Shown in pieces: positions 4,084 to 57,249 of a stretch of DNA of 64,000 nucleotides (the stretch's first letter is position 1; each line of letters opens with the position of its first letter). A program made the position numbers and the translations under genes. Source of the DNA: Lepidurus packardi (lineage: Eukaryota; Arthropoda; Branchiopoda; Notostraca; Triopsidae); the NCBI GenBank assembly GCA_023053545.1, contig JAKZAN010000004.1, positions 12,251,235 through 12,315,234 of the forward strand, written 5' to 3'. Below the pieces are notes generated by a model. It saw only the letters and a list, made by a program, of their open reading frames with translations, was not told where the DNA came from and searched no databases.

Positions 4084-6866
<2,783 letters not shown>

Positions 6867-20100: not shown

Positions 20101-21559
20101 AGTCCTGTTCTCCCTGCCAAGCGTTTAACTCAAACTGCCATGAGTTCCCCAACTTCCTCGTCACCGTCTCCACTTCCACACCGTTTAACTGGATCGGCAG
20201 TTACAGTAAGCTCCACATTTTCCTCTTTTCCTGTATCTACTCCTGGCTTTGGCTCGCAAAATGACTCAATTTTTAATAAAGATTTTTTTAATTCACTCTT
20301 TTTTTTTAGTAGTTGCACTCTTCAATTAAAAGTCACAACCCAAAAAAAACTTTCTCCCACCAAAAAAAAAAAAAATCTGGTCAGAAAATAGTCGATAATG
20401 TGCCCGTTAGATGGCACAGTTTTGACTAAAAACAGATCAACAACAAAAGTCACAACCGATATGGTCCTTCTAGGCCCCAACTAATCGTTTTAATTTACCA
20501 GATTCCATCTAATAGATTAACAAATTTTCCAAATCTGCGATCTTTTTTTTTTCAAAATTCGTCAAATGAATTTTGAATTTTGCCTGAATTAGTGACAGTT
20601 TTGACATTAAGTCGAATCCTTTCATTTGAATGATTCATTTCAAATGTTTCAGTAATTCCAATGTTGCATTAATATGGTTTTACATTCATCCGAATAGTTC
20701 AATCATTCCAATTTTTTTCCTTAATTTGAATGTTTCATTCATATGAATTTGCCTTTCAAACTTTGGCCTTTTAAAACTTTTCAAATTAGTTACGACAAAA
20801 ACAACTAAATTGACACTTTGAGGCCATACTTCTTGATGTCGACTACATTACTGTCAAGAAATTTTTTTTTAGAAAAATCGCCAATAACCATTTTTCAATC
20901 TCTTATACTTCTGCGTTCTCACCGTAGAAAGCTAAATTAGACGCACTAAATTATTCTAAGCTTGTTCTTATTCTATTTTTTTTTATTTTTATTTTATTGT
21001 AATTATTCTTATTCTATTGCTAAATTATTCTAAGCTTGTTCTTATTATATTTTTTTTATTTTTATTTATTTTTATTTTATTGTAATTATTCTTATTCTAT
21101 TGCTAAATTATTCTAAGCTTGTTTTTATTCTATTTTTTTATTATTATTTTATTTTTATTTTATTGTAATTATTCTTATTCTATTGCTAAATTATTCTAAG
21201 CTTGTTTTTATTCTATTTTTTTTATTATTATTTTATTTTTATTTTATTGTAATTATTCTTATTCTATTACTAAATTATTCTAAGCTTGTTCTTATTCTAT
21301 TTTTTTTTATTTTTATTTTATTTTTATTTTATTGTAATTATTCTTATTCTATTACTAAATTATTCTAAGCTTGCTAATAGCGAACAATCTGAACCGAATC
21401 AAAAATTCCCTTAAAAAAAGAAAAGTACTAAAAAAAAAAATTTTCCTATAGTCGCCCATTTCGGTTGACGTGCTTCTCGAAGGTGTTGAAGACGACGGAC
21501 CTCCACCTCCTCCTCCCAAAAAGCCCGTTTTGCGGCCTCCGGCTAAATTACCCCCTTGA
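8194..21559 (+). CDS. mbc: DOCK1/myoblast city Rac guanine-nucleotide exchange factor
   Basis: An atypical Rac GEF acting with ELMO at the membrane in cell migration, myoblast fusion and engulfment. I read 35 exons, about 2,076 codons. Starts and ends: 8194-8239, 8408-8619, 8696-8792, 8848-9008, 9069-9192, 9261-9491, 9561-9805, 9875-10004, 10074-10280, 10344-10501, 10579-10874, 10971-11155, 11355-11455, 11519-11653, 11725-11904, 11983-12157, 12346-12453, 12652-12807, 13412-13605, 13681-13913, 14000-14202, 14262-14390, 14475-14588, 14722-14973, 15046-15246, 15395-15530, 15597-15697, 15767-16096, 16155-16370, 16432-16544, 17241-17387, 17539-18004, 18112-18247, 20003-20205, 21452-21559. The SH3 domain is in exon 2, the DHR-1 lipid-binding domain spans roughly residues 415-640 ([14 protein letters not shown]), and the DHR-2 GEF domain roughly 1270-1685 ([28 protein letters not shown]). 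The tail is Ser/Pro-rich and ends with a PPPPPPKKP motif for SH3 partners. The exon 1/2 junction is off by one base. Confidence 0.95.
12346..12453 (+). other. Possible cassette exon of the DOCK gene
   Basis: This 108-nt open exon is flanked by TTTTTTTAG and GAG|GTGAAG. Both ends are phase 0, so including or skipping it keeps frame. It adds 36 basic residues (starting [11 protein letters not shown]) between helical segments that are contiguous in vertebrate DOCK1 as I remember it. The preceding exon ends in Glu-Glu and so does this one. Alternative splicing is inference. Confidence 0.5.
12820..13320. repeat. Tandem array, about 165 bp x 3, in a DOCK intron
   Basis: Three near-identical units, each with TTAAGAATTTAGTTTGCATT, a T-run, and then ATAGACTTGCGCCTATTGTT. 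They fill most of the intron between 12,807 and 13,412. Confidence 0.85.
15255..15390. repeat. Short tandem repeat built on TTGAATTATTTCG
   Basis: About four copies of TTTCTTGAATTATTTCG with small changes fill the intron between DOCK exons at 15,246 and 15,395. Confidence 0.75.
16545..17240. repeat. AT-rich DOCK intron with ATCGATT palindromic repeats
   Basis: Mostly low-complexity AT. From about 16,905 to 17,160 the words AGAAATCGATT and TTTTCGATTCGATTTC alternate three to four times and give local inverted repeats. No coding sequence was found before the exon at 17,241. Confidence 0.7.
18260..19600. repeat. Tandem array, about 142 bp x 10, in a DOCK intron
   Basis: The core ATTAATATTCAAATTCAATT recurs about every 142 bp from 18,287 to about 19,573, with GTTGGAAAAGTGGATTCTTC in each unit. 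The array starts a few bases after the donor at 18,248 and fills most of the 1.75-kb intron. Confidence 0.92.
20945..21370. repeat. Tandem array built on CTAAATTATTCTAAGCTTG, last DOCK intron
   Basis: Six or so units of about 60-75 bp. Each has a T/A-rich tract and the word ATTCTTATTCTATTGCTAAA. Noncoding. Confidence 0.85.
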
Positions 21560-22526: not shown

Positions 22527-25182
22527 TTAGTACCGTTTGTCTGCGGAATCACCGACAGGGTGACGATTGTAAGGTTGAGTGAACGAAAATCCAAACCCAG
22601 CCAAGGAACTTTTGTTGTTTTTATCCATCATGATATCGGTGCCTTTAATATGAGCGATTTGCTGATTCTTAGCGGCAGTTTTGGCTAATGGATCGTCGGA
22701 TGGATTGTCTGCCAAGTCGGGATTGACTCCTCCCTTGTACCATTTGTAGTAAACGTACTCAAAAGCGAGAGTCACGCCTGCCAATCCGATTCCCACGAAG
22801 ATGACGATAAAAACGCCACCTGTTGGTAGAAATAAGAAGTTTTTTTTTTAATTTATTTTTTTTTTTAAATTTTTTTTTTGGTGTAGAGTACCAATGTTCT
22901 GGATGCTGATACCGTCCGATTGATCAGATTGATCGCCACATTCTTTACGGTCAGGATTGCCCGACCACCAACGTTCCTTCAGCGTTTCTAGCTTACGTTG
23001 ATTGAGTAGTTTTAGGATCCTGTATTGGAAAAAAACGCGTTAAAAAGGAGTTCAGGCTGAGTATAGAAGAGCTTACGCGTCGTTGAGCTGATCTCTTAAG
23101 GGGGAACCTTCTTGGACAGCTAAAGCGTAAGGTTTGCGAGAAAATTCTTCGCCTACCATCTGTAAGTCGCAGTTGGTTAAAACTTGATAGCGAACGTCAG
23201 TCGCGTCACCTTCAAAATGTTTCAAAAAAATTAAAAATGGTTACCAAAAAAATGACAAAATTCGTAAATTCATTAAGAAATCGTAAAAAAAACGCTTTCT
23301 AGAAAAGGAAAGAAGGTAAAAGAAGATTAGTATTTATATTACATTAATTACATTAATTAACAAAAGCATCAGGGGGAAGTTTTTGAAGAAATTATTGTTA
23401 AAGAAATTAGGTAATTTTTTTTGTGTTTTGGGTATTTTGACTTTCAAAGATTTGTACGTACCTAAAAAGGCAAATCCTTCACTGTCTGAAGGTGATTGTC
23501 GAACTCGATCCAACGCCATCTGGAAGGTGGGTGGTAAACTAGCATCTTGCATGGCTTGCCAAATTTTTGTGTATTTGTCACTCACAGGGTAATCCCAGAC
23601 TGCTAGTTTACTCCGTTCGATTTCGCTGAGACTGTCATTTAGACTCATATCTTTCCAAATCCTAGTTTGTTCCAAAAATTAGAACGCAAATTTCTAGGAA
23701 ATTCAATGACATTAGATTCTTAAATGGATAATGGGGATGTTTTTTAATTAGATTAATGGATGATTTTTAAAGAAAATTTGTTTTAATTTGTAAAGAAATT
23801 CGGATAGCGTTGCGATTTGAACTCACTCATAAAACTTCTTTTCGATGTACGCCATTCGCTCAAAGTACGTCATAACCGAAGAGCCGTTAACGGGCGCGTA
23901 CTGGATTTTATACTGGTTGGCTAGATCGTCCAAGGAATTGACTGGCGAATCTAAACGCGAAACGGTCAAAAAGGCAGCCAAATTGGCCGTGTACGATGCG
24001 ATAATGATGAAACCAAATAACCACCAGGTGGCAGCAATGAGGCGCCCGGATAGATGCTTAGGAGCTTCTCCTCCACCCTGGAAAATATATTTAAAATAAT
24101 ATACACTTAATTAGCCTGTGTCTTTCAAGTTAATTCGCTATTTCCATTCGCCCATTACAGTTACAAGATTCAATTTCAATTAAATTTAAAATTAAATTAA
24201 AATATTAAAAAAATTAATTTAAGATTCAATTTAAAGTTTCATTAAGATTTCATTGACAACTTGCGTCTTTAAGTCAAATCGCTATTTCCATTCGCCCATT
24301 ACAGTTACAAGATTAACTTTCAATTAAAATTAAATTAAAAAATTATAAAAAATTAATTTAAAATGAAATTTAAGATTCAATTTAAAGTTTCATTAAGATT
24401 TCATTGAGAACTTGCGTCTTTAATTCAAATCGCTATTTCCATTCGCCCATTACAGTTACAAGATTAACTTTCAATTAAAATTAAATTAAAAAATTATAAA
24501 AAATTAATTTAAAATTAAATTTAAGATTCAATTTAAAGTTTCATTAAGATTTCATTGAGAACTTACGTCTTTAAAACTTACAAAGAAAGACAGATTAAAT
24601 GAGTAAGTTTCATTCTTAATTTTAGTTGTAGTTAGTAATCTTAATTTTAATTGAAGGAGTTAGTTATAGGCGATTAGGTTTCCAGTACTTCCAGTACTAC
24701 TTAGTTAGTTGAGTACTAATTGGTAATTTTTTTGGGTTCACCTGAGGGGTTAGGGAAGTCATGCAGAACCAAAGAGATTCTTTCAAGGTAAATTCTCTTT
24801 TTTCTTCATCGTCGATGTATTTCTCTTTGTTGTTCTGGTAAGAATAAGGACTCCATCGGTCAAAAATCCAGAGCAAAAAGCTAGATTTTTTTTTTCAATT
24901 CATTAATATATTATTATTTAAAAAAAATGGAATCAAGAATTTTCAAGTTTTTATTTTTTTACGTCTTTTGAATTACTATTTTACCTGGTGAAGAAATAAG
25001 CAGCTAGAATACAACCCCAGACGTCATTTTCGAGTACCGTCAAGAATTTAAAAAGCGAAGTCGATACCACAGGTTTCTTCATAAGAATGCTAATACCCAC
25101 CAAATCGTAGTAAGGCACAGTAAAGTCGATCACACTTTCCCTCTCAGCCATGACTGCCAACGCTCCCAAACCAATATGAGCG

Positions 25183-25222
<40 letters not shown>

Positions 25223-25450
25223 TTAGAAAGTATCTTCCATTTTACACTGAACGATCGTATTACTTTATCGACGAGCTCTTTAACTAAACCATTCCAGTTC
25301 ATATTCTCATCCATATTACCATAATCTGGTACTTCATAAAGCTCATAGTCAAAGTCCAGAATCTCTTGGATTCCTTTGAGCAAGTCCAGACAGTACCCGT
25401 AGTACTTGACGGTACCATTGACGACCTTTTTCATCACAAAGGGCGCTTGC

Positions 25451-25486
<36 letters not shown>

Positions 25487-28400
25487 CTACCAATAAATTT
25501 AGTCTTGAATTAGCAAGCCAATTTATCAAATCTTCAAACAAATTCTATCAATCTTTATGAATCGATTCCTTTTCATCTCCCATGCAATTTTATTCTTGTA
25601 ATTTAATTATTTGCATATTCTGGATTTATATTTTGGATACTTTTGGATATTCTAATCTATTAACTTAGTTCTTAGGTCTTGTTATTGTTTTATTTTATTT
25701 TTCTTTTATTGTATTTTTTGTTATTTTTTAAAAAATTATTGACTTGGTTTTCAAGCAAATTCTATCAATCTTTATGAATGGATTCCTTTTCATCTCCCAT
25801 GTAATTTTATTCTTGTAATTTAATTATTTGAATATTCTGGATTTATATTTTGGATAATTTTGGATATTCTAATCTATTAACTTAGTTCTTAGATCTTGTT
25901 ATTGTTTTATTTTCTTTTTCTTTTCTTTTATTTATTGTTATTTTTTTTTAAATTCTTGATTTTTAATTTTTGTCTTCAAACAAATTCTATCAATCTTTAT
26001 GAATCTAGTCCTTTTCACCTCCCATGCAATTTTATTCGTTTAATTTAATTATTGGGATATTCTGGATTTATATGTTGGATTTTCGGATATTCTAATCTCT
26101 TAACTTAGTTCTTCAATGTTAATAGAACTTACAATAACTACGACCACTTTGTAGACAGTAATGGCGGTTAAAGGCGCCAAACTTTTTCCGCCCGCTAGCT
26201 CCATCTTCCCAGCAGGTAAACTAGCTCGCCAAGTACCCAAAGTGGACGCCGTTTGCGTTTTCCCTCTTACGTCCATTTGGTCTAACCTCAGCTCCATTTT
26301 CATGTAACTCTTGCCATTCTCAGCCAACTGAAAGGGCCAGATCGAAGGAGCCACATTCGCCTCATTAAACGCTTTACGCAATTCCAAGTTGGTACGAATG
26401 ACTGGCTGTAATTCTGTCGCATTACAAGCCACGAACGGCATTGCTGCAGGCCAGGAGTTATTGCTCATCAGATTTCTGCCGAAAAAAAAATCCATAAATT
26501 GCTAGGCTTTCATTTTTTAAAAAAATAAAATAAGTAGTGTAGTTAAAAAAAGAGGATTTAAAAAGTACTGGACTGCCGTAACAGAGCGCAAGATAAAGTC
26601 GAAATAAAACACGAGATCAATCGGAGGCATATCTTTGAAGCCCAACATTTTCCAGCGTTCGGCTCCGGCAGAAATGTCGAGGGTGGGTTTCGGGTAGATT
26701 TCAACTATTGACGCGTTATCCGCTTTAATCTTCAAAAAGCTCGTTTCACCCTAAGAATGTAAACAAACCCACCAAATAAGAAAAAAAATCAAAACAAGCG
26801 AACACGGAAAGCAGAAAACAAAGAAAAATAAGAAAAGAAGCAGAAATAAGAATGAAAATAATATAAAAAATAAGTAGAAATAGGAATGAAAAGAAGTAGA
26901 AATAGGAATGAAAGAAATATAAAAAATAAGTAGAAATAGGAATGAAAAGAAGATAGGAAAAGAAGTAGAAGTAGGAATGAAAGAAATATAAAAAATAAGT
27001 AGAAATAAGAATGAAAAGAAGATAGGAAAAGAAGTAGAAATAAGAAAGAAAATAATATTAAAAAAATAAGAAAAGAAATAGAAATAAGAATGAAAATAAT
27101 ATAAAATTAAGTAGAAATAGGAATGAAAGTAAGATATGAACAGAAGTAGAAATAGGAATGAAAATAAAATAAAAAAATAAGTAGAAATAGGATTGAAAGA
27201 AATATAAAAAATAACTAGAAATAGGAATGAAAGAAATATAAAAATTAAGTAGAAATAGGAATGAAAGTAAGATAGAAAAAGAAGTAGAAATAGGAATGAA
27301 AATAATATAAAAAAATAAGTAGAAATAGGAATGAAAGAAATATAAAAAATGACTAGAAATAGGAATGAAAGAAATATCAAAATTAAGTAGAAATAGAAAT
27401 GAAAGTAAGATAGGAAAAGAAGTAGAAATAGGAATGAAAAGAAGATAGGAAAAGAAGTAGAAATAAGAAAGCAAATAATATAAAAAATAACTAGAAATAG
27501 GAATGAAAGAAATATAAAAAATAAGTAGAAATAGGAATGAAAATAATATAAAAAACAAGTAGAAATAGGAATGAAAAGAAGATAGGAAAAAAAGTAGAAA
27601 TAGGAATGAAAGAAATATAAAAAATAAGTAGAAATAGGAATGAAAGAAATATCAAAATTAAGTAGAAATAGAAATGAAAGTAAGATAGGAAAATAAGTAG
27701 AAATAGGAATGAAAGAAATTTAAAAAATAAGTAGAAATAGGAATGAAAAGAAGATAGGAAAATAAGTAGAAATAGGAATGAAAGAAATATAAAAAATAAG
27801 TAGAAATAGGAACGAAAATAATATAAAAAATAAGTAGAAATAGGAATGAAAGTAAGATAGGAAAATAAGTAGAAATAAGAAAGTAAATAAAGAGAAAATT
27901 CAAGTTTTTATCATGACAGGAAATCCGGGTTGAATTTACTTTGGACATTAAGTACCAGGCGTATTTCTTGCCAAACATTTCTAATCCAGCAGCAATATCC
28001 AGTACAGTTTGGAGTTGGCTAGGTTTGGCTAGCACAAAGTAATTAACGATGTTTAAGTCATCCAGTCGTTTTAATTGACGGGCGATCCATTCGGTCGTCA
28101 TGTCCAAATGCAAGATTAAATGGCGTGTTGGCATGTTGGCCAACAATGACTTGTACTTGTACTCCATCACTATAAAAGATTCAACAGGCCAGGCATGTAT
28201 ACATAATCCAAAGCCCATGCCAAAGGCGAATCAATAGAAGGAAGAGGGGACTCTTGTGTTCAATAAGGAATTGAGTTCCTCCTATACTTGGCGTAGTACT
28301 TTATCTTCTCTGGTTTTAGTACCGAGCCAAAATTCCCGGGGCAATAGGGAGTTTTCGCTCTTTTTTAGTAATTACCGAAACTGTCGTCGTATAAAATGAC

Positions 28401-30123
28401 GGCGTTGCTCATGTTTTGCGCCGAAGTAATATCCGTAACGGCTACGCTCATGATATCGCCTGGGGGCATTACTTGAATGAAATATTTCTTTTGCTCGGCC
28501 GTCAAGTTCTTCCACGCTCTAAAGCAAAGACCAAAAAATAAGAAAAAATAGAATAAAACAAAGTCTAAAAAATCTTTTAAAAAAAGTCTTAAAAAATCTA
28601 AAAACAAAAACTAGTCAAGGTATAAAGAGGAAAACAACATTAAAAATATTAACCATAATCGTTGAAGAAAATAGTATTAAATATATAATAAATGGTAGGC
28701 AATCATAAATGCAATAAGTAGAAAAATAATGTTTTAAATAGTAAGAAATGCCGTAGCTTGTTATGCTTGTTAACTCAGTTCCCACTAGATGGCGTAACGT
28801 GTTTTGTACGGGTGTATATGACCGCGCATACGCTTCTGCGCATGAAGCCTGAAACTGCGCAGAAAGGGATCAAATAAATCTTAAAAAATAAGAATTGAGT
28901 CATATCTAGGGCTGCGGACCCCATGTTATCGTGGTAATAGCATGCTAAGTTATAGGGGACCTAAATGAAATAAATAAAGTTAAATTCATGTGCTTACCGT
29001 AAGTCGCTTGGTCCGCCATACGAGGCGCTTAAGGTGGGTAGACCCAATACCAGGGTCATAGCTTTGCTGACGTCAGAGGTTAACCCTGCTAGGGTCATAT
29101 CTAAGACGAGGTGAGGTGGATTTCCATTTTGGACAATACTATCGTAAACCTCACAAACTGAAAATATGAAATAAGGACTGAGTTGTAGAAAGAGTGAAAG
29201 TAGAAGTTGAAAATCTTACACATTTCAGCAGACAAGTACGTTTCAGAGGAATTCACAGTGAGCCGGTACACTTGGTCAATACTTGTGTCGGATTTGGCCC
29301 GTTGTAATGTGACGTTAACAAAATTAAGCGCTTGTTCCACATCTCGATTATTGGCTTCGTTAATGAGCACTGGAAAATCAATTACGCTATACTTACTAGA
29401 ATCCTATTTATGAAATTAGTTTATCAAAAGTATAATACAATTGAGTATAATATAATGTTGAGTAAAAGTAATTAAATTCAATTCAATTCAGCAATTCTTT
29501 AAATTCAATTCGATTCAATTCTTTAAATTCAATTAAATTCAATTCTTTCAATTCAATTAAATTCAATTCTTTCAATTCAATTCAATTCTTTCAATTCAAT
29601 TCAATTCTTTAAATTCAATTGAATTCAGTTCAATACTTTAAATTCAATTCAGTTCAATTCTTTCAATTCAATTCAATTTTTTAAATTCAATTCTTTCAAT
29701 TCAGTTCAATTCTTTAAATTCAATTCAATTCTTTCAATTCAATTCAATTCTTTCAATTCAATTCTTTAAATTCAATTCAATTCTTTAAATTCAATTCAAT
29801 TCAATTCTTTAAATTCAATTCATTTCTTCAATTTTTAATTCTTTAAATTCAATTCAGTTCATAAATTCAATTCAATTCAATTCTTTAAATTCAATTCAAT
29901 TCAATTCTTTAAATTACATTTAAATTAAATTAAATTCTTTGAATTCTTCGTTAAATTCTTTCGAAATGTTCAGGTGCAAGAATGTTATCAGATTGCGACA
30001 ACAAAGGAGACCGCTCGAATACTTACGAATTCTGATTGGCACAGCTTGCGAGAGCGTTATGAAGGTAATGCCAAGTACATAAAGTAGCCTGAGGGCTTGA
30101 TTGAGTCTGGGTACGTCTTCCAT
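22527..30123 (-). CDS. Ir25a: Ionotropic receptor 25a co-receptor
   Basis: Broadly used co-receptor subunit of variant ionotropic glutamate receptors in chemosensory, thermo- and hygrosensory neurons. Fifteen exons in phase, 944 aa (Drosophila about 947): 30123-30027, 29369-29220, 29157-28998, 28518-28376, 28169-27940, 26750-26569, 26475-26133, 25449-25264, 25184-24985, 24880-24742, 24077-23827, 23661-23462, 23209-23077, 23019-22892, 22819-22527. It has a signal peptide, then the long amino-terminal domain that marks IR25a (HLVLDMTLAG, ILYDDSF). S1 has GYCLDLLKGI and AERESVIDFTVPYYDLVG, keeping the Arg that binds ligand in iGluRs. The pore/TM3 has SYTANLAAFLTVSRLDSP (about residue 638). S2 has LSLNDSL-type and KLAVWDYPVSDKYTK blocks. 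TM4 starts at about residue 848 (GGVFIVIFVGIGLAGVTLAF). It is adjacent to Ir93a on the same strand. Confidence 0.97.
24115..24565. repeat. Tandem array, about 146 bp x 3, in an Ir25a intron
   Basis: Three units, each containing TCGCTATTTCCATTCGCCCA and TTACAGTTACAAGATT, followed by A/T-rich sequence. They lie between exons at 24,742 and 24,077. Confidence 0.88.
25540..26095. repeat. Tandem array, about 220 bp x 3, in an Ir25a intron
   Basis: The block opening ATTCTATCAATCTTTATGAA and ending near ATATTCTAATCTATTAACTT recurs three times between exons at 26,133 and 25,449. The same intron carries a 30-odd-base A-run at about 25,455. Confidence 0.85.
26790..27900. repeat. 1.1-kb polypurine array in an Ir25a intron
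   Basis: About 25-40-bp units on the words AAGTAGAAATAGGAATGAAA and GATAGGAAAAGAAG repeat for 1.1 kb. The plus strand is almost only A and G with scattered T. The transcribed RNA is therefore pyrimidine-rich. It lies between exons at 27,940 and 26,750. The hydrophobic ORFs across it are by-products of the repeat. Confidence 0.93.
28784..28855. repeat. Dispersed element, copy 1 (Ir25a intron)
   Basis: Reads CACTAGATGGCGTAACG, GGGTGTATATGACCGCGCAT, CTGCGCATGA. Most positions match 44,268-44,332. The start also fits the vertebrate CTCF core (CCACTAGATGGCG). Confidence 0.75.
29455..29945. repeat. AATTC-based simple repeat in Ir25a intron 1
   Basis: Long run of AATTCAATTC and CTTTAAATTC words, palindromic at the EcoRI-like GAATTC/AATT level. 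It lies between the signal-peptide exon (ends 30,027) and exon 2 (starts 29,369). Confidence 0.85.
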
Positions 30124-32087
30124 GGTGGAGGTATTCGTTCACACTAAGAATCCGTGGGAAACCTGAAATCTATTGGGGTATACTGCTTGTGTGGAACTTT
30201 GCCCTGGTTCGCCGTGTCCTTAGCGTGTGTCCTGCCACGCCCCTTTTCCACCGAACGACCTTTTCTTCGATGCTCGAGACGCAGACGAACGATCGGGACG
30301 AGTGCTCACTGCAGCGAGGGAAATTACGAATGCAAATAGTTATTAGGAAGTACCGGAGATTGATCTTGTACTTCTGTTGCTCAGACGATTGTCTGCAGGG
30401 ATCGCTTCTTCCATAACTAAAATCCATGATTACCTTTCTTTCAAGATCATTTGAGGAACGAATTGGGGTCAGATAATGTCAGGAAGTTAATTAATATAAT
30501 AATGTGTTAAGGCTTCCGTGTACCTTAGCTCGATGTAGGCGGTTAGCATGGGGAATTCATAGGTTTCGGACCAACTTTTCTTTAAGACCAGCACACTTCC
30601 ATGGAAAAAAACTCTTTGGCAGTAAGCTTTAGCATTCTAACAACTAGTGCATTAACCAATCTACCTTTTTTTCAGTGAATATTACATTAGTGTGCATGCA
30701 AAGCTAGTTGGCAATCAATATTTCTTCCTGTCACTTAGTTTCGCAAGACGTTCACGAAACAATAACAAACATCAGCGCCATCTAGGATTTTTTTTTGCAT
30801 CAATAAGGTTATACGGTGAACTAGCAATTTATTGTTGCAGCCAAGTACAAAGCTGCTAGTTCCAAATCCGAACTAAAAAAAATCATTATTGGAAGAAAAG
30901 TACGGTGTTTCGCAAGACTTTCCCGCAATGATAACAAACATCAGCGCCATCTAAAATTTGTTTTTGGCATCAATAAGGTTATACGGTAACTAAAAATTCA
31001 TTGTTGCAGCCAAGTACAAAGCTGCTAGTTCTAAATCCGAACTAAAGAAATCATTATTGGAAGAAAAGTACGGTGTTTCGCAAGACTTTCCCGCAATAAT
31101 AACAATCAGCGCCATCTAAGATTTGTTTTTGGCATCAATAAGGTTATACAGTAAACTAGCAATTCATTGTTGCAGCCAAGTACAAAGCTGCTAGTTCCAA
31201 ATCCGAACTAAAAAAATCATTATTGGAAGAAAAGTACGGTGTTTCGCAAGACTTTCTCGCAATGATAACAAACATCAGCGCCATCTATGATATTTTTTTT
31301 GCATCAATAAGGTTATACGGTAACTAAAAATTTATTGTTGCAGCCAAGTACAAAGCTGCTAGTTCCAAATCCGAACTAAAAAAAATCATTATTGGAAGAA
31401 AAGTCCGGTTTCCCAGTTCAAAATCTTGCATAAGATGTACCTGCCCTAGCTTATGGATGGGAAACCTTAAGGTTGAAAGGAAGGAAAAGGTTTTCCTAAA
31501 AAGCAATGTTGGCTGACTGTTTGACTGGTCCTCGAAGGCACATCTTTTATGCACGACGTTGCATGCCAGCTTTTCTTTTTCGTTAAAGGTTCTTTATTTT
31601 TATTGTATGCATCATGTCATCATGTCAGTTGAAAGGCAGTACATGTACATGTTGCCTCTGTGTATTTACCGTTAAGACCTTTACTATAGCTCGCGGGGCT
31701 TTCTTTATTGATTGATTTGGAAATTGAGCCAACTTGGGGAATAAGTCAACATCAAATTTTATTATTCACCGAGGGGAGGGGGGGGGACGTGTATGCGAAG
31801 TATTGACTGCAAGGGCTGTCACGTTAAGTATTCTTGTATTGCTCGAAACTTTACTTGACCATGAATTTTCTATACATTGTTTCTACATTGAACTTCATTG
31901 AATTGTTCTACATTGAACTTCCTAAAGTACTTCCTAAAGTATCGTGCACTACCGCAATGGGCTCTAACATTTCTTTTGTAAGATTTGTTTGTAAGCTTTG
32001 CAATGAATAGAAAACCAAATGTTGTAGCTTCAAGTTGCTCAAAGGTGCCATTTTCTAACTATTTCAGACGGAATCCAGGCGGAATTG
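30124..32087. other. Intergenic region between Ir25a start and Ir93a stop
   Basis: 1.96 kb. It should contain the Ir25a promoter next to 30,123 and the Ir93a 3' UTR next to 32,088. It also holds the 167-bp four-unit array (30,742-31,412) and a G-run at about 31,778. The short open frames at 30,154-30,427 overlap on both strands and show no family likeness, so I do not call genes. Confidence 0.6.
30742..31412. repeat. Tandem array, about 167 bp x 4, carrying GCGCCATCTA
   Basis: Units begin near TTTCGCAAGACTTTCCCGCA and each contains AGCGCCATCTA, GCATCAATAAGGTTATACGG and TTGTTGCAGCCAAGTACAAA. A related single copy lies at about 63,225-63,290 (AACAAACATCCGCGCCATCT, then GCATCAATAAG). The unit is therefore a dispersed element that was locally amplified. 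Confidence 0.9.
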
Positions 32088-35000
32088 TTAGTTGACGAAA
32101 GGGCGGATTAATTCCATTTCCTTGCGTTGCGTAATGGCAAATCGTCTTCGTTCTCCAATGAAGGAAATCGCCCCCAATATCGTGCCTGGAATTGGTGACA
32201 GGATTGAATTTCAAGTCGAATTTAGCAGGGAATTTGGGGTATGGATTGGTATGATAATTTTAGATTTATTTTATTTTATTTTATTATTATTATTACTATT
32301 ATTATTATTTATTTTATTTTATTATTATTATTATTACCTATAAGCATAACGTAGAAAGAGCCTTGCATGTCCTGGATCGTAATAGCCGAAGTACCACCGT
32401 CTCCTCCGCCCATTGCGGTGGCCGAACACTTGTCTGCCGGGGGCCAATACTGTGCTTTCCAGTGCTCAATCAATCCACCGCGTAACAAGCTCCTAATTCT
32501 ATCATGAAATGAACAGAATTTAGGCTTAGCATTATTTTTTTATTTTTTTTATTTTGTTAATTGTACTCTTTGTTCATCTTGCGCATTAAGGGGCTGGCAG
32601 GGGGCAGCGCCATCGCTACTTGTTCAGTGAAAAATTCCTCAGATCCTAAAAATAAGTCAAAAATAATTCAAGAAATGGAAGCAATTAAATCATTAAAATT
32701 AGACGGACACACATTATTGGGTGTTTTATTCTAAAATTAGTAATTATAATTAAATTAAATTAAATGAGTAATTATTAGAAATTATAGGATTAAAATGGGG
32801 GGGGGTTGGGGGCGTTTTGAAAAATTCACCTAACGAGTAATCGCAGCGCCCGGTTTTGAGATACTCGGCTTTCATTAAGAACACGAGATTGGTTTTCCAT
32901 TCAAAATAGGCGTGGTTAAAGTCACGAACGAGTTCGAGCAAACTGTCGTCTTGTTGGGCGTGTAACACTGCGCCTTCGTAAACGTGACGAAACTTTGGCT
33001 CATCCGAGTTCTTGAAATAATAAAAAAAAAAAAAAAAGAAAAAGAAAAACTTGAAAAGCTCGGCCTTAATTGCCTGGGTTTCTCTGGGTTACTTTAAGGT
33101 AATCTTCAATGGCAGTTCCCTTTAAGATGCCCCATGACACGGCGCCTTGTTGATCCAATAGATCTTGCAAAGAGCCGACCGGATTTTCGTATTTGGGGAA
33201 AGTGAGGAAGGCGACGAGATTGCCAGAGTAAGTGGTTAGGATGACGATCACGAAGAGCCACCACACCCCGACAATAATCCTCCCACTAATAGCATTAGGC
33301 ATTTCTCTTTGTCCTATAATATTTTTAAAAAATAATAAGTCATAATAAACAAAATAAACAATAAAAATAACATCAAGGGCGTTAACTAATATTTTAAATA
33401 AACCTTGTAATGACACAATTTCATGGAATTTAGTCTCATTGCTCAGTTTTAAGTCTTTTTCCTAAGACACGATTGCAATCGTTTCAATCGATATTGAAAG
33501 AACCCCTGACACGATTGCAATAGTTTCAATCGATATTGAAAGAACCCCTTAAACGATTGCAATAGTTTCAATCGATATTGATAGAACGCCTGACACGATT
33601 GCAATAGTTTAAATCGATATCGATAGAACGCCTGACACGATTGCAATAGTTTCAATCGATATTGAAATAACCCCTTAAACGATTGCATTAGTTTCAATCG
33701 ATATCGATAGAACCCCTGACACGATTGCAATAGTTTCAATCGATATTGATAGAACCCCTGACACGATTGCAATAGTTTCAATCGATATTGAAATAACCCC
33801 TGACACGATTACATAGTTCAATCGATATTGACAGAATCCCTGACACGATTGCATTAGTCTCAATCGATATGCATAGAAGCCCTGACACGATTGCAATAGT
33901 TTCAATCGATATTGACAGAACGCCTGACACGATTACAATAGTTTCAATCGATATTCATAGAACGCCTGGCACGATTGCAATAGTTTGAATCGATATCGAT
34001 AGAACCCCTGACACGATTACAATAGTTTCAATCGATATTGAAAAAAACCCTGACACGATTGCAATAGTTTCAATCGATATTCATAGAACGCCTGACACGA
34101 TTGCATTAGTTTCAATCGATATTGAAATAACCCCTTAAACGATTGCAATAGTTTCAATCGATATCGATAGAACCCCTGACACGATTGCATTAGTTTCAAT
34201 CGATATGCATATAACCCCTGACACGATTGCAATAGTTTCAATCGATATTGACAGAACGCCTGACACGATTGCAATAGTTTCAATCGATATTGATAGAACC
34301 CCAGACACGATTGCAATCGTTTCAATCGATATCGATAGAACCCCTGACACGATTACAATAGTTTCAATCGATATTCATAGAACGCCTGACACGATTGCAA
34401 TAGTTTCAATCGATATTGAAAAAAACCCTGACACGATTGCAATAGTTTCAATCGATATTCATAGAACGCTTGCAATGTTTCATATAGTACTATGCAATGC
34501 ATAAATTAGTGAAATCCAGAAAAGCTTCAGCTAAAAGAATAGGTTTCGAACCTTGATTGAGGATCGCTCCAGTGCAGTACCAGATATTGTACCAGAAATC
34601 AAAGATGGCTTTGGTTCGTTTCTCGCCATGATATGCGTAATAGGGGCAAACTAGCGTAAAGCCCCAGATAATGGGTCCCATGGCTAACATCATGAAGAGT
34701 ATGGCCAACCATGACTAAAAACATACATTTAAAAAACAAAACAAAAAAGAACGAAACCCAAGAGAGAGGGACGAGAGTGTCATTTGAAGCTCTGTTTGAA
34801 TCATGTCGTTCTATAGAGAGCCGAAATTGATATATAGAAATGGATTACATCTGTGTTGTAAGGCTGAATGAAGAGTAACGCTCGACTGACTTCCTGGGGA
34901 CGCGCTATTAGGAAGGTGTAGGGTTGGGTATCAATGGCGGCCGTAAAGTTAACTACCAGCATTCGGTCGGGCGTGATAGTAAAACCAGCAGCGGCAAAAT

Positions 35001-38000
35001 CGACCTAAAGGGTTTCCCCCCACAGCCAGGAAAAAGAAGAGACTTGTTAGCCATTGGAACAGATTGAAGGGTGAGACCAGCCCCTATCCAATAACACTTA
35101 CTTGACCTAACCGAACCATTTCGATCATGCCTGTCCATCGACTCATTGTCAAACGAGCGCCCCATTGATTATCCGGTGGCGTTTTCACTATATACCTTTT
35201 ATAATTTCATATTGTCAATGTCTGTGTACTTCCTGTGCAAGTTTGAATTGTCTAAACTTATCTAAACTAATTCAAACTTTATCACAAAACTCAAATTTTA
35301 ATATGTGCATTCTAATACGTGTAATTTCACTCATCGTAAACGCATTCACGATGAGTAAGATTGTTTGGTTAAGTACCTTTAAATGTATCGATTGAGTTGA
35401 CTAAATCGATATCGAAATGGCCTATGAATCGATAATGGACTTAACCGTCCTTCCTTACCCCCTCTCCCGTCACCTTCTCTAACTAACCTGTAAATATGAC
35501 CCAAAACAATGCTGTTTGGGTTTAATACCTTTAAAGTATCGATTGAGTTGACTAAATCGATATCAAAATCGCCTATGAATCGATAATGGACTTAACCGTC
35601 CTTCCTTACCCCCTCTCCAGTCACCTTCTCTAACTAACTTGTAGATACGACCCAAAACAATGTTGTTTGGGTTAAGTACCTTTAAATGTATCGATTGAGT
35701 TGACTAAATCGATATACAAATCGCCTAATCAAATTGGCTTAACCTTCCCGTCCTTCCTTACCCCCTCCCCCGTTACCTTCTCTAACTAACTTGTAAATAC
35801 GACCCAAAACAATGTTGTTTAGGGTTAAGTCTTTAAATGTATCGATTGAGTTAACTAAATCGATATCAAAATCCCCTAATCAAATTGCCTTAACCTCCCC
35901 GTCCTTCCTTACCCCCTCTCCCGTCACCTTCTCTAACTAACCTGTAAATAGTGACCCAGAACAATCTTGTTTGGGTTAAATACCTTTAAATGTATCGATT
36001 GAGTTGACTAAATCGATATCGAAATGGCCTATGAATCGATAATGGGCTTAACCGTCCTTCCTTACCCCCTCTCCCGTCACCTTCTCTAACTAACTTGTAG
36101 AAACGACCCAAAACAATGTACTACACTTGGTCTAAACATTTCCCTAAATGTTTTCTACAACTTCCAGATAACATTTAGCATAAATATATCTATAAATAAT
36201 GTACTAAAAGAACTAGGCTTATTTTCCTACGCTAGCTCAACCAAGAAAAATCGCATTTTAAGATGATTCAGGCTGTTTTTAAAGGGTAAACGAGATGTAA
36301 ATTAGCTTACGAGAAGTTTAGTCGTTGGCTTAGAACGTTAACAACTTCGAATATGACTCCAGTGTGATTGACAACATTGCCTTGGCTATCTTTCCCCAAA
36401 ATTTGCCATGGAGGGAACTAAGACATGAATTATTAATCTTTGACTGAAACTGTGCACTTTATTTTGGAAGCAAGATTATTATTTTTAATTTATTATTTTA
36501 ATTAAATTTTTATTATTATTTTTATTTTATTTTATTCTATTTTATTCTATTTATTTCTATTTTATTCCTATTTTATTTTTTTTATTTATTTATATTTTAT
36601 TCTATTTATTTCTAATTTATTCTATATTATTTTATTCTATTTTTATTTTATTTTATTCTATTATTATTATTTTTATTTTTCAAGATTATTGTATTTTTTT
36701 GTATTTTTTTTTGGATGCCAAATTTTTACGTGGATTGAAGCGAGTACCAGCTGACGACCTCGCATGCCGCCAGTAACGTGGGGAAATAAGTCATCAAGCA
36801 GCTGTAGGCCATCTAAAGGCGTCCACGTCCCCACTTCTAGCAAACTCGGACTTCGATCCTCTTTGATAAACTGCACCGCCTGTAGTTGCCAGCGAAAGCA
36901 ATTTCCGCACTGCGCTGTGTCGCTAAAAGTTTGCTAAGCTCAGCAAACACCCCAGAAAAAAGACAGAATTTTTTATTTTTTTTTAGAGGAAAACTTGGGC
37001 ATGGTATTCTGGTAGGTTAGCAAAAGTTTGGACAGTTTTCTTCCGAACCTTGATGGCAGAAATCAGATTGCTGCTGCGCTGACTCCTGGAGGGCTTTATT
37101 TCTTCCCATTCTTCGTCCGAAACGCTTAAAAATTCTTGTTCTTCGGCTTTCAGCACTTTTTTCATGGATTCAAAGTACGGAGCCATCAACTGCCGAGCAT
37201 AGCAGGCTAACCCGGTCCCCTAACACAGGCCAATGAGTTGATTAAACCATGAAATGAAAACTTTAAAAAAAAAAAAAAAAAAAAGTTTGAAATTTCTTTT
37301 GAGTTGCTGCCAACACATGACCAAAGCCATTCTCATAAGACAATCTTTGTAAGTGAAGAAGCGGATTTTGGCTCTTGAAGATCGTTAATTCTCGTTCTAG
37401 TCTGAAGTAATATTCTTAATGATCGTAAAACTGGCATGGTCGCATGTGGAGGGTACATTAGCTCTGACGTTAATAAAGTTCAAGCGATCTATTCAGCTTA
37501 CTTGGCAATTAGAAGCGTTCAAGGGTGGGAAGGAGTCGGTTACATTGAAGATAAACGCAATATTGTGCCCGTCCTCTGCTTTAGACAGAAATGGCTCGGC
37601 AATATCGGTCGCTCCCGAGTCCCTTAAGATGAATAACCATTGATTATGTTCATTCATGTACCCAGCGTCGATAGCCTAAAAGGGTTGAGAAGATTTTGGG
37701 GATTTTTTTTTTAGTTGTACTCGCAAGGCATGCAAATGTGGATAGATAAAAAGGGGCGGGGCCAGTGTTTACTGCGTCTTGAATCCATAAGGCCGTGCTC
37801 TGTCTCGACAGTAATATAAAATTGTAGCCTTTATTCGTGGCCGGCAAGGATTGGAACATCAAAGCCGCACTACGACGTCTGTTTTTAGAAAAAATAGAAA
37901 TAAAATAGATAATTAGATAAATTAATTCGATAAAATTGATAAATTAATTCGATAAAATAGATAAATTAATTCGATAAAATAGATAAATTAATTAGATAAA

Positions 38001-41000
38001 ATAGATAAATTATTTAGATAAAGTAGATAAATTAATTAGATAAAATAGTTAAATGAATTCGATAAAATTGATAAATTAATGCGATAAAATAGATAAATTA
38101 ATTCGATAAAATAGATAAATTAATTAGATAAAATTGATAAATTAATTAGATAAAATTGATAAATTAATTAGATAAAATAGGTAAATTAATTAGATAAAAT
38201 AGATAAATTAATTCGATAAAATAGATAAATTAATTAGATAAAATTGATAAATTAATTAGATAAAATTGATAAATTAATTAGATAAAATAGATAAATTAGT
38301 TCGATAAAATAGATAAATTAATTCGATAAAATAGATTAATTAATTCGATAAAATTGATAAATTAATTCGATAAAATTGATAAATTAATTCGATAAAATAG
38401 GTACATTAAATAACATACAAAATAGATAAAACAGTTGAAAAATTTAAAAGTTGAAAAATAGTTGAAAACTAATAGTGTATTTAAGTTTTGAATAGAGATT
38501 CCATTTTCTTAATGACACACATAATGAATTATTAGTTAACTCATTCTTAATTGGCCCTAAATCATTCTTAATTAGTACTAGCTAATCTTTTATTGTGATT
38601 GGAATATAATTATGTAATTTTAACTATATTGGGAATATAGTTATCAGTTCAATGTTTGTACCTTCACTCTAATTAACCTTCTTGAAATGAATTGTGAATT
38701 TCTAAATTTGAAAAATTTGAAATTTGAAACTTTAAAATTAAAGTTCATTTCTTAGTGTAGGGTCTGAAGTTAGTTACCTGTTTGCAATAGAGCCAGAAAT
38801 TTTCAAGGTAGTCACAAAAAGGGGATGGCGTTTAGGCAAGGGTTCTGTTAAACTGCGTATCAGGTTGTCTATTGTTGCCGGATCTGCCCAAACGCGACAA
38901 AATGTATCAAAAATTTTAAAGTACAAAAAATTCTTCGCCTTGAAGTATTAGGAATGAAACTGCTAATTTACCTGTATTGTCTTCGAAGAGAATTACAACC
39001 TCACTCCAAGTCAGCGTTTGTGCCATGCGCATATCTGTAATTATTTGCGCAATTTCTTGGCCTGCGCGAACCACTGGTGTCACCTGAACTTCATTTTCTT
39101 CCAACCTGGGACATGCAAACTCTAATAAAAAAAAATTAAATCAACGCATTGAAAGGCTCCGAATCATAAAAAAGAGCATTAAGAGGACTCTGAACTAAAC
39201 AAAAACTTTTAAAATTGAAAAGCTTTTCTTTAATCTAGAGTCCTCTAAATGCAAGGTTTGTATAATTATTTGTATAATCCAAAGCGGATTGTCTGGTAAT
39301 AATTTGCTCGTTAACGAATGTATCTCCTCCAGCAAGTCGCTTTGGATTACACCCTTAATTGTATTCCATTGTATTTCATTGTCTTTACCAGTGACGGCCA
39401 TAAGTGCAGTTCCATACTTGTGAAGTTGCGCATGTAAACGATGCATTAACTCACAATTCGTCACCGAGATGGCAGCAGTGAGCCCTGTTTGAATAGTCAA
39501 CGGACAAAGAATGACTCATCGTGTACTCAATCGAGTGGATTTCAGCGTTAGATGCGATTATTACCAGCCGGAATGGGATCAGAAACGCGAAGAAACATGA
39601 TATCGTGCATATGCTCAGGCAAATGTTCTTTATTCAGCCCAATAATTCCTTCAAACGCACTTTGGATCTCCGCTAAGTGCCCACGCACGAACGCGGGGTC
39701 CACAATGACGCCTATCCAGAGAAGATTAGCCCAAACAACAAGCTTAACTACCCAGATCAACTCAAAACTACAATACCTAGAAACTACCCCTTTCTATTAC
39801 TTTTTTTTTATTACTACAAAACACGGAAGAATGACTAGAAAAACAAAATAATTTTGACTTCATTTCCTTGAAAAAACATTATTATTTCACTCATTGGATA
39901 TTCAGCCCCCCAAAGTCCCAAAGTTTCTCAATTTCCTTGTAAATATCATTTTTCCAAGTATTCTTAGCTAGTAAGTATTGAGCAATATTTCTTCGCTAGT
40001 AAGTATTGCGTATACGCCGATTAATATTTTTTTAAAAAAAAGTATTGAGTAAGCATTCTTATATTTTTCCAAGTATTCTTAGCTAGTAAGTATTGAGCAA
40101 TATTTCTTCGCTAGTAAGTATTGCGTATACGCCGATTAATATTTAAAAAAAAAGTATTGAGTAAGCATTCTTATATTTTCCCTAGTATTCTTAGCTTGTA
40201 AGTATTGAGTAATATTTCTTCGCTAGTAAGTATTGAGTATACGCCGATTAATATTTTTTTAAAAAAAAGTATTGAGTAAGCATTCTTATATTTTTCCAAG
40301 TATTCTTAGCTAGTAAGTATTGAGTAATATTTCTTCCCTAGTAAGTATTGAGTATACGCCGATTAATATTTAAAAAAAAGTATTGAGTAAGCATTCTTAT
40401 ATTTTCCCTAGTATTCTTAGCTAGTAAGTATTGAGTAATATTTCTTTGCTAGTAAGTATTGAGTATACGCCGATTAATATTTAAAAAAAAAAGTATTGAG
40501 TAAGCATTCTTATATTTTTCCAAGTATTCTTAGCTAGTAAGTATTGAGTAATATTTCTTTGCTAGTAAGTATTGAGTATACGCCGATTAATATTAAAAAA
40601 AAAGTATTGAGTAAGCATTCTTATATTTTCCCTAGTATTCTTAGCTAGTAAGTATTGAGCAATATTTCTTCGCTAGTAAGTATTGAGTATACGCCGATTA
40701 ATATTTTAAAAAAAGTATTGAGTAAGCATTCTTATATTTTTCCAAGTATTCTTAGCTAGTAAGTATTGAGTAATATTTCTTCCCTAGTAAGTATTGAGTA
40801 TACGCCGATTAATATTTAAAAAAAAGTATTGAGTAAGCATTCTTATATTTTCCCTAGTATTCTTAGCTAGTAAGTATTGAGTAATATTTCTTTGCTAGTA
40901 AGTATTGAGTATACGCCGATTAATATTTAAAAAAAAAAGTATTGAGTAAGCATTCTTATATTTTTCCAAGTATTCTTAGCTAGTAAGTATTGAGTAATAT

Positions 41001-41808
41001 TTCTTTGCTAGTAAGTATTGAGTATACGCCGATTAATATTAAAAAAAAAGTATTGAGTAAGCATTCTTATATTTTCCCTAGTATTCTTAGCTAGTAAGTA
41101 TTGAGCAATATTTCTTCGCTAGTAAGTATTGAGTATACGCCGATTAATATTTTAAAAAAAGTATTGAGTAAGCATTCTTATATTTTTCCAAGTATTCTTA
41201 GCTTGTAAGTATTGAGTAATATTTCTTTGCTAGTAAGTATTGAGTATACGCCGATTAATCTTTTTTAAAAAAAAGTATTGAGTAAGCATTCTTATATTTT
41301 TCCAAGTATTCTTAGCTAGTAAGTATTGAGTTATATTTCTTCGCTAGTAAGTATTGAGTATACGCCGATTAATATTTTTAAAAAAAGTATTGAGTAAGCA
41401 TTCCTACATTTTTCCTAGTATTCTTAGCTAGTAAGTATTGAGTAATATTTCTTTGCTAGTAAGTATTGAGTATACGCCGATTAATATTTAAAAAAAAGTA
41501 TTGAGTAAGCATTCTTAGCTAGTATTACCTAAAACGAGATCTTTGACGATGTAAGGGATAGTTTCGTTTAACCATATCCAGTCGGCAGGCGTGGCTTCCT
41601 CGAAGAGTCCGAGAAATAAATCATCGTTTTTGATATCCGCGACACTTCGTATATAGCGCCTGAGGCAATGGCCAGTACCGGTGTCATTTCCGCAATCAAA
41701 ACTTGGCGGAATGGATACCCCCCCGCCCGTGTCTTGTCCATACGTCGCCGATCCTATTACTACCCCTGCCAGCAGGCCAATCAGTACTTGCACGCTGAAA
41801 TCAATCAT
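32088..41808 (-). CDS. Ir93a: Ionotropic receptor 93a co-receptor
   Basis: IR co-receptor that in insects works with IR25a in hygrosensation and thermosensation. Eighteen exons, 915 aa: 41808-41529, 39711-39565, 39484-39389, 39121-38972, 38883-38778, 37878-37773, 37675-37502, 37219-36995, 36933-36730, 36417-36311, 35195-35102, 35004-34849, 34714-34552, 33313-33093, 33010-32830, 32645-32567, 32498-32338, 32185-32088. Signal peptide [18 protein letters not shown]1 includes [16 protein letters not shown], keeping the ligand-site Arg. TM1 starts near residue 616. The pore and TM3 read [20 protein letters not shown] then FLTFPK, the IR93a pattern. S2 has [22 protein letters not shown]4 ([18 protein letters not shown]) is split by the last intron. 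Two junctions are soft: the donor after 36,995 (GTTTTC) and the donor after 34,552 (GTTCG). An in-frame ATG at 41,841 is an alternative start. Confidence 0.93.
33465..34475. repeat. 42-bp tandem array x about 24 in an Ir93a intron
   Basis: The unit ACACGATTGCAATAGTTTCA + ATCGATATTGATAGAACCCC recurs about every 42 bp. Because 42 is a multiple of three it opens several frames, which are not genes. Each unit carries an ATCGAT palindrome. It lies between exons ending 34,552 and starting 33,313. Confidence 0.95.
35370..36120. repeat. Tandem array, about 154 bp x 5, in an Ir93a intron
   Basis: Units contain TTTAAATGTATCGATTGAGT, CGTCCTTCCTTACCCCCTCT and CACCTTCTCTAACTAACTTG. The pyrimidine block makes it unusually C-rich for this window. 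Confidence 0.92.
36475..36690. repeat. TTTTATTCTA simple repeat in an Ir93a intron
   Basis: Low-complexity TTTTATTCTATTTTATT run between exons ending 36,730 and starting 36,417. Confidence 0.75.
37890..38405. repeat. 22-bp tandem array x about 23 in an Ir93a intron
   Basis: The unit AAATTAATTCGATAAAATAG + AT repeats with C/A changes at one site (AATTCGAT or AATTAGAT). It sits just after the acceptor-side exon 37,878-37,773. Confidence 0.93.
39940..41515. repeat. Tandem array, about 113 bp x 14, in Ir93a intron 1
   Basis: The word GAGTATACGCCGATTAATAT recurs about every 107-117 bp, with two copies of CTAGTAAGTATTGAG per unit and a variable A-run. It fills the 1.8-kb intron between the signal-peptide exon (ends 41,529) and exon 2 (starts 39,711). 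The last unit runs up to the donor. Confidence 0.95.
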
Positions 41809-42166
41809 CTTGCTCTTAATCACGCTGATGTTAACCTCCATGAACGACGGAAGTTGGATCACCACTGAGAGGTTTCTACTAATCCTATCCCCCCCGAAAG
41901 CTTCTCCTCCCCCAAGATCTTGGTGCTTCTTCGTTAGAATCAGAAAGGAAACTTGCAAGATTGATGATGTGGTGATTGCGTGATGGGTCAGAATCTTCCT
42001 TTTAACAATGTATTCCATGCATTCGTTAACTGCACAAAGGGGAGAAGCTATAAGGTGGGTTTGGCGTGTCTACGAAACTTGTAGGATCATTGAGTACCGA
42101 GTATAGATAGGGAACGTGGCAGAAATAAGTACTAGAGTAAGGAAGAGAAAGAAAGGAAGAGGCAAC

Positions 42167-56137: not shown

Positions 56138-57249
<1,112 letters not shown>

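Follow-up and report, generated by a model that had tools for sequence, protein, structure and literature searches.

The stretch of the Lepidurus packardi genome analysed here, hereafter the window, spans 64,000 nucleotides (C3:12251235-12315234; contig C3 measures 12,866,234 bases, in a genome of 108,557,554 bases and 344 contigs). It carries two intact ionotropic receptor (IR) genes, of the Ir25a and Ir93a types, placed head to tail on the minus strand with Ir93a upstream and Ir25a downstream. Elsewhere among arthropods, the IR25a and IR93a subunits combine with a tuning IR to form a single channel that senses temperature, humidity or odour. We report that the same two genes are probably neighbours in a second crustacean, that their linkage is probably old, and that the two are not sister genes.

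Gene models were predicted from the genomic sequence, by reading frames and splice sites, with phases verified by script; those of the relatives described below are likewise predictions from genomic DNA. All 31 introns of the two models are of the GT-AG type, phases are consistent, and there is no in-frame stop. The rebuilt models match in strand, coordinates, exon counts (15 and 18) and spacing (about 2 kb) the head-to-tail pair proposed by a prior sequence-only reading of the window (Table 1). For Ir93a, an alternative start exists at an in-frame ATG at 41841, 33 bases upstream. When the Ir25a protein was used as query for a spliced alignment to the Ir93a region, introns 9 to 16 fell on the same bases as in the model (8 out of 8). 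The N-terminal exons were not recovered by this alignment and intron 17 is past its end; the N-terminal parts of the two proteins bear hardly any mutual resemblance. Searched against the genome, the Ir93a core and Ir25a gave near-identical matches at this locus only, bar a fragment of 38 residues from Ir25a exon 11, located on contig C5. This stray copy comprises part of the exon and its acceptor edge, over 109 bp with 95% identity. A scan of viral_contigs with the Ir93a core gave no match.

Both products scored far over the Pfam cut-offs for the two channel domains, PF00060 (Lig_chan, cut-off 30.8 bits) and PF10613 (Lig_chan-Glu_bd, cut-off 30), with 145.1 and 116.0 bits for the Ir25a-type protein, and 110.2 and 60.0 bits for the Ir93a-type protein. 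The top PDB matches of both were kainate and AMPA receptors (2.5e-82 for Ir25a, 3.2e-41 for Ir93a). Each gene is predicted to encode one subunit of a cation channel, made up of a long N-terminal part, a pore and a clamshell-shaped extracellular domain that binds the ligand. The names Ir25a and Ir93a are putative, being based on domain architecture and on general resemblance to these receptors. The choice of Ir25a over Ir8a for the 944-residue product, as well as the name Ir93a for the 897-residue product, is our assumption from that resemblance.

In the amino-terminal region of Ir25a, the family for the amino-terminal domain (ATD), ANF_receptor (PF01094), reached 19.1 bits, under its cut-off of 25.4, and the phmmer alignments to kainate receptor 2 reach this region, from residue 128 or 129. 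About 460 residues precede the channel core of Ir93a. They gave no PF01094 match at 0.001, and some alignments to kainate receptor 2 begin at residue 208, so that a weak ATD likeness remains. In the ligand-binding domain of Ir25a, 26 to 34 alignment columns form an insertion that at most 2 of the 12 other aligned genes fill and that contains an N-D-S sequon. Judging by position and sequon, this insertion is the predicted counterpart of the extra loop with a glycosylation site described for co-receptors (PMC7510291). Like known Ir25a, the gene product has both domains, an N-terminus that is kainate-receptor-like by alignment, and a sequon-bearing loop; the gene has many introns and the protein no unusual feature, the genomic neighbour being unlike that of Drosophila Ir25a. 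Like known Ir93a, the second product has both channel domains, a long N-terminus without Pfam ANF_receptor match, and a position nested among IRs. Ir93a of the copepod Eurytemora has 20 exons (PMC5714493), versus 18 coding exons here, where the gene adjoins Ir25a.

The two genes are separated by a spacer of 1,964 bp, measured between the stop of Ir93a and the start of Ir25a; the minus-strand AATAAA nearest to the Ir93a stop lies 325 bp beyond it, at 31763. Because a spacer of this length holds AATAAA motifs after the Ir93a stop, an operon-like single transcript appears unlikely. Within the spacer, a 169 bp unit is present four times in tandem. A genome search with one unit returned no copy beyond these four, and we therefore rejected the repeat as a dispersed element or as a bridge between two loci in the assembly.

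Linkage in other arthropods

In the mantis shrimp Oratosquilla oratoria, the published table of 50 IRs (Table 4 of PMC11939437) assigns the consecutive numbers Orat_gene16135 and Orat_gene16136 to OratIR25a and OratIR93a, respectively. The four co-receptors of this species are on three chromosomes, 9, 21 and 30, and the other two carry numbers remote from these, 7298 and 21236. In the same table, the IR clusters named by the authors, in which neighbours are less than 70 kb apart, have consecutive or nearly consecutive numbers (21360 to 21364 for IR40a-2 to -6, 29704 and 29705 for IR1018-1 and -2), and close gene numbers were for this reason taken to denote neighbours. As gene numbers reach at least 29705, the chance that two given genes would be neighbours is about 2 in 29,705. 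The IR25a/IR93a adjacency is unremarked in the portions of that article's text that were available. We conclude that microsynteny of the pair is probably conserved, with the same two co-receptors as neighbours in one further lineage, where the comparison is by gene number. The far larger genomes of stomatopods suggest that this lineage is distant from the present animal. The linkage is thus probably old.

Several points weigh against this reading or its generality. In Drosophila, Ir25a and Ir93a lie on different chromosome arms, 2L and 3R, and nevertheless cooperate, so that function does not require linkage. The Drosophila IR names are cytological by rule (Croset et al.), which places the two genes apart in this insect and agrees with the sequence-only reading. 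In the copepod Eurytemora affinis, IR25a and IR93a are assigned to scaffolds 269 and 35, respectively (PMC5714493, Table 1); this assembly is a draft, for which the authors report split and misassembled genes. The tandem IR pairs named in a mayfly paper are IR6/IR7, IR13/IR14 and IR16/IR17, and IR25a/IR93a is not named, with a method that may miss genes as diverged as these two. Finally, linkage was found in only one other species, by gene number rather than by coordinates, and the IR93a model of O. oratoria is short (491 aa; PMC11939437). The proposal that the linkage is ancestral is supported by the consecutive mantis shrimp numbers, and the Eurytemora scaffolds and the Drosophila names speak against its generality. 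An IR25a/IR93a linkage was stated nowhere in the searched main text of the open-licence PubMed Central papers that were found on the pair and on shrimp, crab, water flea and tadpole shrimp genomes, and insect, mite, barnacle, spider and shrimp papers contained no direct statement of adjacency in the parts available.

Intron positions and phylogeny

To compare introns, relatives from the same genome were modelled with a spliced aligner, using Ir25a as query for glutamate receptors, and Ir93a or another IR as query for IRs; the labels non-NMDA and NMDA-type were given by eye. Among the 44 PF00060 loci (merged at 20 kb), 16 were modelled, counting the window locus once and including a partial model at C4:10.06 Mb, which entered neither the intron set nor the tree. 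The intron count comprised 13 genes, namely the two window genes, five non-NMDA receptors, one NMDA-type receptor and five intron-bearing IRs. Three near-intronless IRs (0, 0 and 1 core introns) were present in the 16-row tree and in a 14-gene alignment, and not in the 13-gene count.

The channel core is interrupted by 8 introns in Ir25a and 9 in Ir93a. In the 13-gene alignment, two of these sites coincide exactly, and four do so within one codon. Two exact coincidences are expected by chance with a probability of about 0.001 (14-gene alignment). Neither exact site is exclusive to the pair, as they are present in 5 and in 7 of the 13 genes, Ir25a and Ir93a included. Between Ir93a and the five other IRs, 6, 6, 5, 5 and 5 sites match exactly, against 1 for each non-NMDA receptor and 0 for the NMDA-type receptor, counts that were identical in two alignment modes. 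The two shared core sites thus mark the IR family rather than the Ir25a/Ir93a pair. Shared introns had been put forward as a possible sign of tandem origin; with both exact sites family-wide, they are no proof of it. A phase-0 intron right after the pore segment was found in Ir93a, in all 5 non-NMDA receptors and in three intron-bearing IRs (14-gene alignment). In Ir25a it is missing, and a phase-2 intron lies instead within the extra loop, ten codons further along. The loop may have arrived together with the change in the post-pore intron.

A tree of 16 core sequences was rooted on the NMDA-type receptor. Ir93a fell inside an IR clade of nine rows with 100/100 support. Ir25a was placed outside this clade, with the shortest path to the non-NMDA receptors, its exact branch among glutamate receptors being unsettled. 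Within the IRs, Ir93a grouped with the three near-intronless members at 93/90; this place is unsure, due to this limited support and to a very long end branch in one row. Forcing Ir25a and Ir93a to be sisters was rejected, at a cost of 72.5 log-likelihood units (p-AU, from the approximately unbiased test, 5.9e-7; 16 sequences). Since Ir93a belongs to the IR clade and Ir25a does not, the proximity of the two genes does not reflect a duplication that gave rise to this pair only. The tandem duplication that the sequence-only reading had envisaged as the origin of the pair is not supported, because no shared intron is exclusive to it and the sister relation is rejected. In Drosophila and other insects, IR genes also occur head to tail at a single locus, in tandem arrays (PMC2924276). 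These arrays are monophyletic groups of paralogues, whereas the two genes described here are not sisters.

Surroundings of the pair

The features of the locus are collected in Table 1. Tandem arrays are found inside the two genes, with 14 copies of 111 bp in Ir93a intron 1 (window 39948-41517) and about 24 copies of 42 bp in Ir93a intron 13 (window 33466-34467); further introns of the pair also carry such arrays.

Beyond Ir25a, exons of a DOCK-family gene occupy 9261-20388 on the plus strand, with Pfam matches to DOCK_N, DOCK-C2, TPR_DOCK and DHR-2 in the part from 9261 to 16348; the span ends in a proline-rich part, assigned by eye, that gave no Pfam match where tested. Two adjoining gamma-glutamyltranspeptidase genes with near-identical exon pieces are found at 267-1751 and 4446-6508, minus strand, with spans set by eye. 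Upstream of Ir93a, pieces resembling a rhodopsin-type seven-helix receptor (44569-46167, minus strand) gave one 7tm_1 match under the cut-off, and otherwise no Pfam match. An EF-hand exon lies at 61627-61998, minus strand, with Pfam matches under the curated cut-offs. Exons 56579-56950 and 58449-58751, similar by eye to NMNAT and dihydropteridine reductase, had no Pfam match.

Table 1. Position of the features of the Ir25a/Ir93a locus (window coordinates, except for the stray piece)
Feature	Position	Strand	Evidence
Ir93a-type gene, start to stop codon, 18 coding exons, 897 aa	41808..32088	-	gene model, Pfam, spliced alignment
Ir93a exon 1, signal-peptide-like start (by eye)	41529..41808	-	gene model
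Ir93a exon 2	39565..39711	-	gene model
Ir93a exon 3	39389..39484	-	gene model
Ir93a exon 4	38972..39121	-	gene model
Ir93a exon 5	38778..38883	-	gene model
Ir93a exon 6	37773..37878	-	gene model
Ir93a exon 7	37502..37675	-	gene model
Ir93a exon 8	37049..37219	-	gene model
Ir93a exon 9, lobe S1 (ligand-binding) starts at exon end	36730..36933	-	gene model, Pfam
Ir93a exon 10, lobe S1	36311..36417	-	gene model, spliced alignment
Ir93a exon 11, lobe S1	35102..35195	-	gene model, spliced alignment
Ir93a exon 12	34849..35004	-	gene model, spliced alignment
Ir93a exon 13, first membrane segment (by eye)	34552..34714	-	gene model, spliced alignment
Ir93a exon 14, third membrane segment	33093..33313	-	gene model, spliced alignment
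Ir93a exon 15	32830..33010	-	gene model, spliced alignment
Ir93a exon 16	32567..32645	-	gene model, spliced alignment
Ir93a exon 17	32338..32498	-	gene model, spliced alignment
Ir93a exon 18, remainder of last membrane segment and stop	32088..32185	-	gene model
Spacer, Ir93a stop to Ir25a start, 1,964 bp	30124..32087		gene models
Four tandem copies of 169 bp unit in spacer	30738..31409		repeat analysis, genome search
Ir25a-type gene, start to stop codon, 15 coding exons, 944 aa	30123..22527	-	gene model, Pfam
Ir25a exon 1	30027..30123	-	gene model
Ir25a exon 2	29220..29369	-	gene model
Ir25a exon 3	28998..29157	-	gene model
Ir25a exon 4	28376..28518	-	gene model
Ir25a exon 5	27940..28169	-	gene model
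Ir25a exon 6	26569..26750	-	gene model
Ir25a exon 7, lobe S1 (ligand-binding) starts at exon end	26133..26475	-	gene model, Pfam
Ir25a exon 8, lobe S1	25264..25449	-	gene model
Ir25a exon 9	24985..25184	-	gene model
Ir25a exon 10	24742..24880	-	gene model
Ir25a exon 11, third membrane segment (SYTANLAAF) and extra-loop start	23827..24077	-	gene model, alignment
Ir25a exon 12, remainder of extra loop	23462..23661	-	gene model, alignment
Ir25a intron change, codons 684-718	about 23858-23827 and 23661-23590		alignment
Ir25a exon 13	23077..23209	-	gene model
Ir25a exon 14	22892..23019	-	gene model
Ir25a exon 15, last membrane segment, tail and stop	22527..22819	-	gene model
Stray Ir25a exon 11 piece	L029 (G000:C5:11718001-11721000), bases 2099-2207		genome search

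Origin and retention of the linkage

The reading that we favour, and consider likely, is that of a conserved, non-sister co-receptor pair, whose members have been neighbours since at least the common ancestor with the mantis shrimp. We infer both that the linkage was inherited from a common ancestor and why it was retained: two ordinary, separately coded co-receptor genes would have stayed adjacent since that crustacean ancestor, partly because both are needed in the same neurons, and they may share a regulatory domain. In the spiny lobster Panulirus argus, 7 out of 7 single olfactory neurons expressed IR25a and IR93a, at a ratio of 0.43 to 1.11, and none of the 7 expressed IR8a or IR76b; very low IR8a was seen in one pooled sample of about 400 neurons, the only exception in that study (PMC7510291). 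By analogy, these data are consistent with a shared regulation of the two genes.

A tandem duplication survives as an origin only if the duplicate founded the whole IR clade, Ir93a being the member that stayed. An early Ir25a-like gene would then have been duplicated beside itself, the copy giving rise to the arthropod IR clade, and most descendants would have left, many of them moving along the same chromosome. This is unlikely, without being far-fetched. In its favour are the survey of Croset et al., in which IR25a orthologues were found in all protostomes and IR93a in all arthropods surveyed, and the linkage in O. oratoria as read from its gene numbers. PF00060 matches are moreover concentrated on C3, which represents 12% of the genome (12.87 of 108.56 Mb): at least 36 of at least 71 matches, both lower bounds, and 19 of the 44 loci merged within 20 kb (binomial probability 1.8e-7, local expansions not being independent events). 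However, this bias may reflect such local expansions, and it includes ordinary glutamate receptors. Moreover Ir93a is not basal in the IR clade, as it groups with the near-intronless IRs. An extended version, which we regard as tentative and rather doubtful, would make the pair an ancestral co-receptor locus in crustaceans, and perhaps throughout the arthropods: the IR clade would have been born there beside Ir25a, and the locus held together by one regulatory domain driving both obligate co-receptors in every olfactory neuron, to be lost where expression became uncoupled, as in flies.

It is improbable that a lineage-specific rearrangement joined the two genes in this animal, by coincidence and without functional meaning. 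The separate positions in the Eurytemora draft (PMC5714493) and in Drosophila would fit such an event, but the consecutive mantis shrimp numbers would then require a second coincidence, of the low probability calculated above. Direct tandem duplication, by which one early IR gene doubled in place to yield Ir25a and Ir93a, is very improbable. It would account for two adjacent genes on the same strand, encoding proteins of one superfamily, with two exact core intron sites and two more within one codon, but the exact sites are widespread, Ir93a has 5 or 6 in common with each of five other IRs, and the tree rejects the sister relation. Lastly, a false join of two loci within the repeat-bearing spacer, a misassembly at 30-32 kb that the sequence-only reading had kept in mind, is hardly credible: despite the four-copy repeat, the unit searched has no copy outside the spacer and is thus an unlikely bridge, the window sits within a 12.87 Mb contig, and gene numbers in the mantis shrimp indicate the same neighbours.

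The two genes are ordinary members of known families, and the conserved linkage of the Ir25a/Ir93a pair is a modest but real synteny finding, which can be tested. The intron and tree results carry a warning, as introns are too widely shared in this family to prove the tandem origin of any pair. If the linkage proved general in crustaceans, the co-receptors that co-occur in every lobster neuron tested would also be physical neighbours, and a shared regulatory domain would become a simple, testable prediction. The pair would then offer a fixed genomic landmark for tracing the origin of the arthropod IR family.

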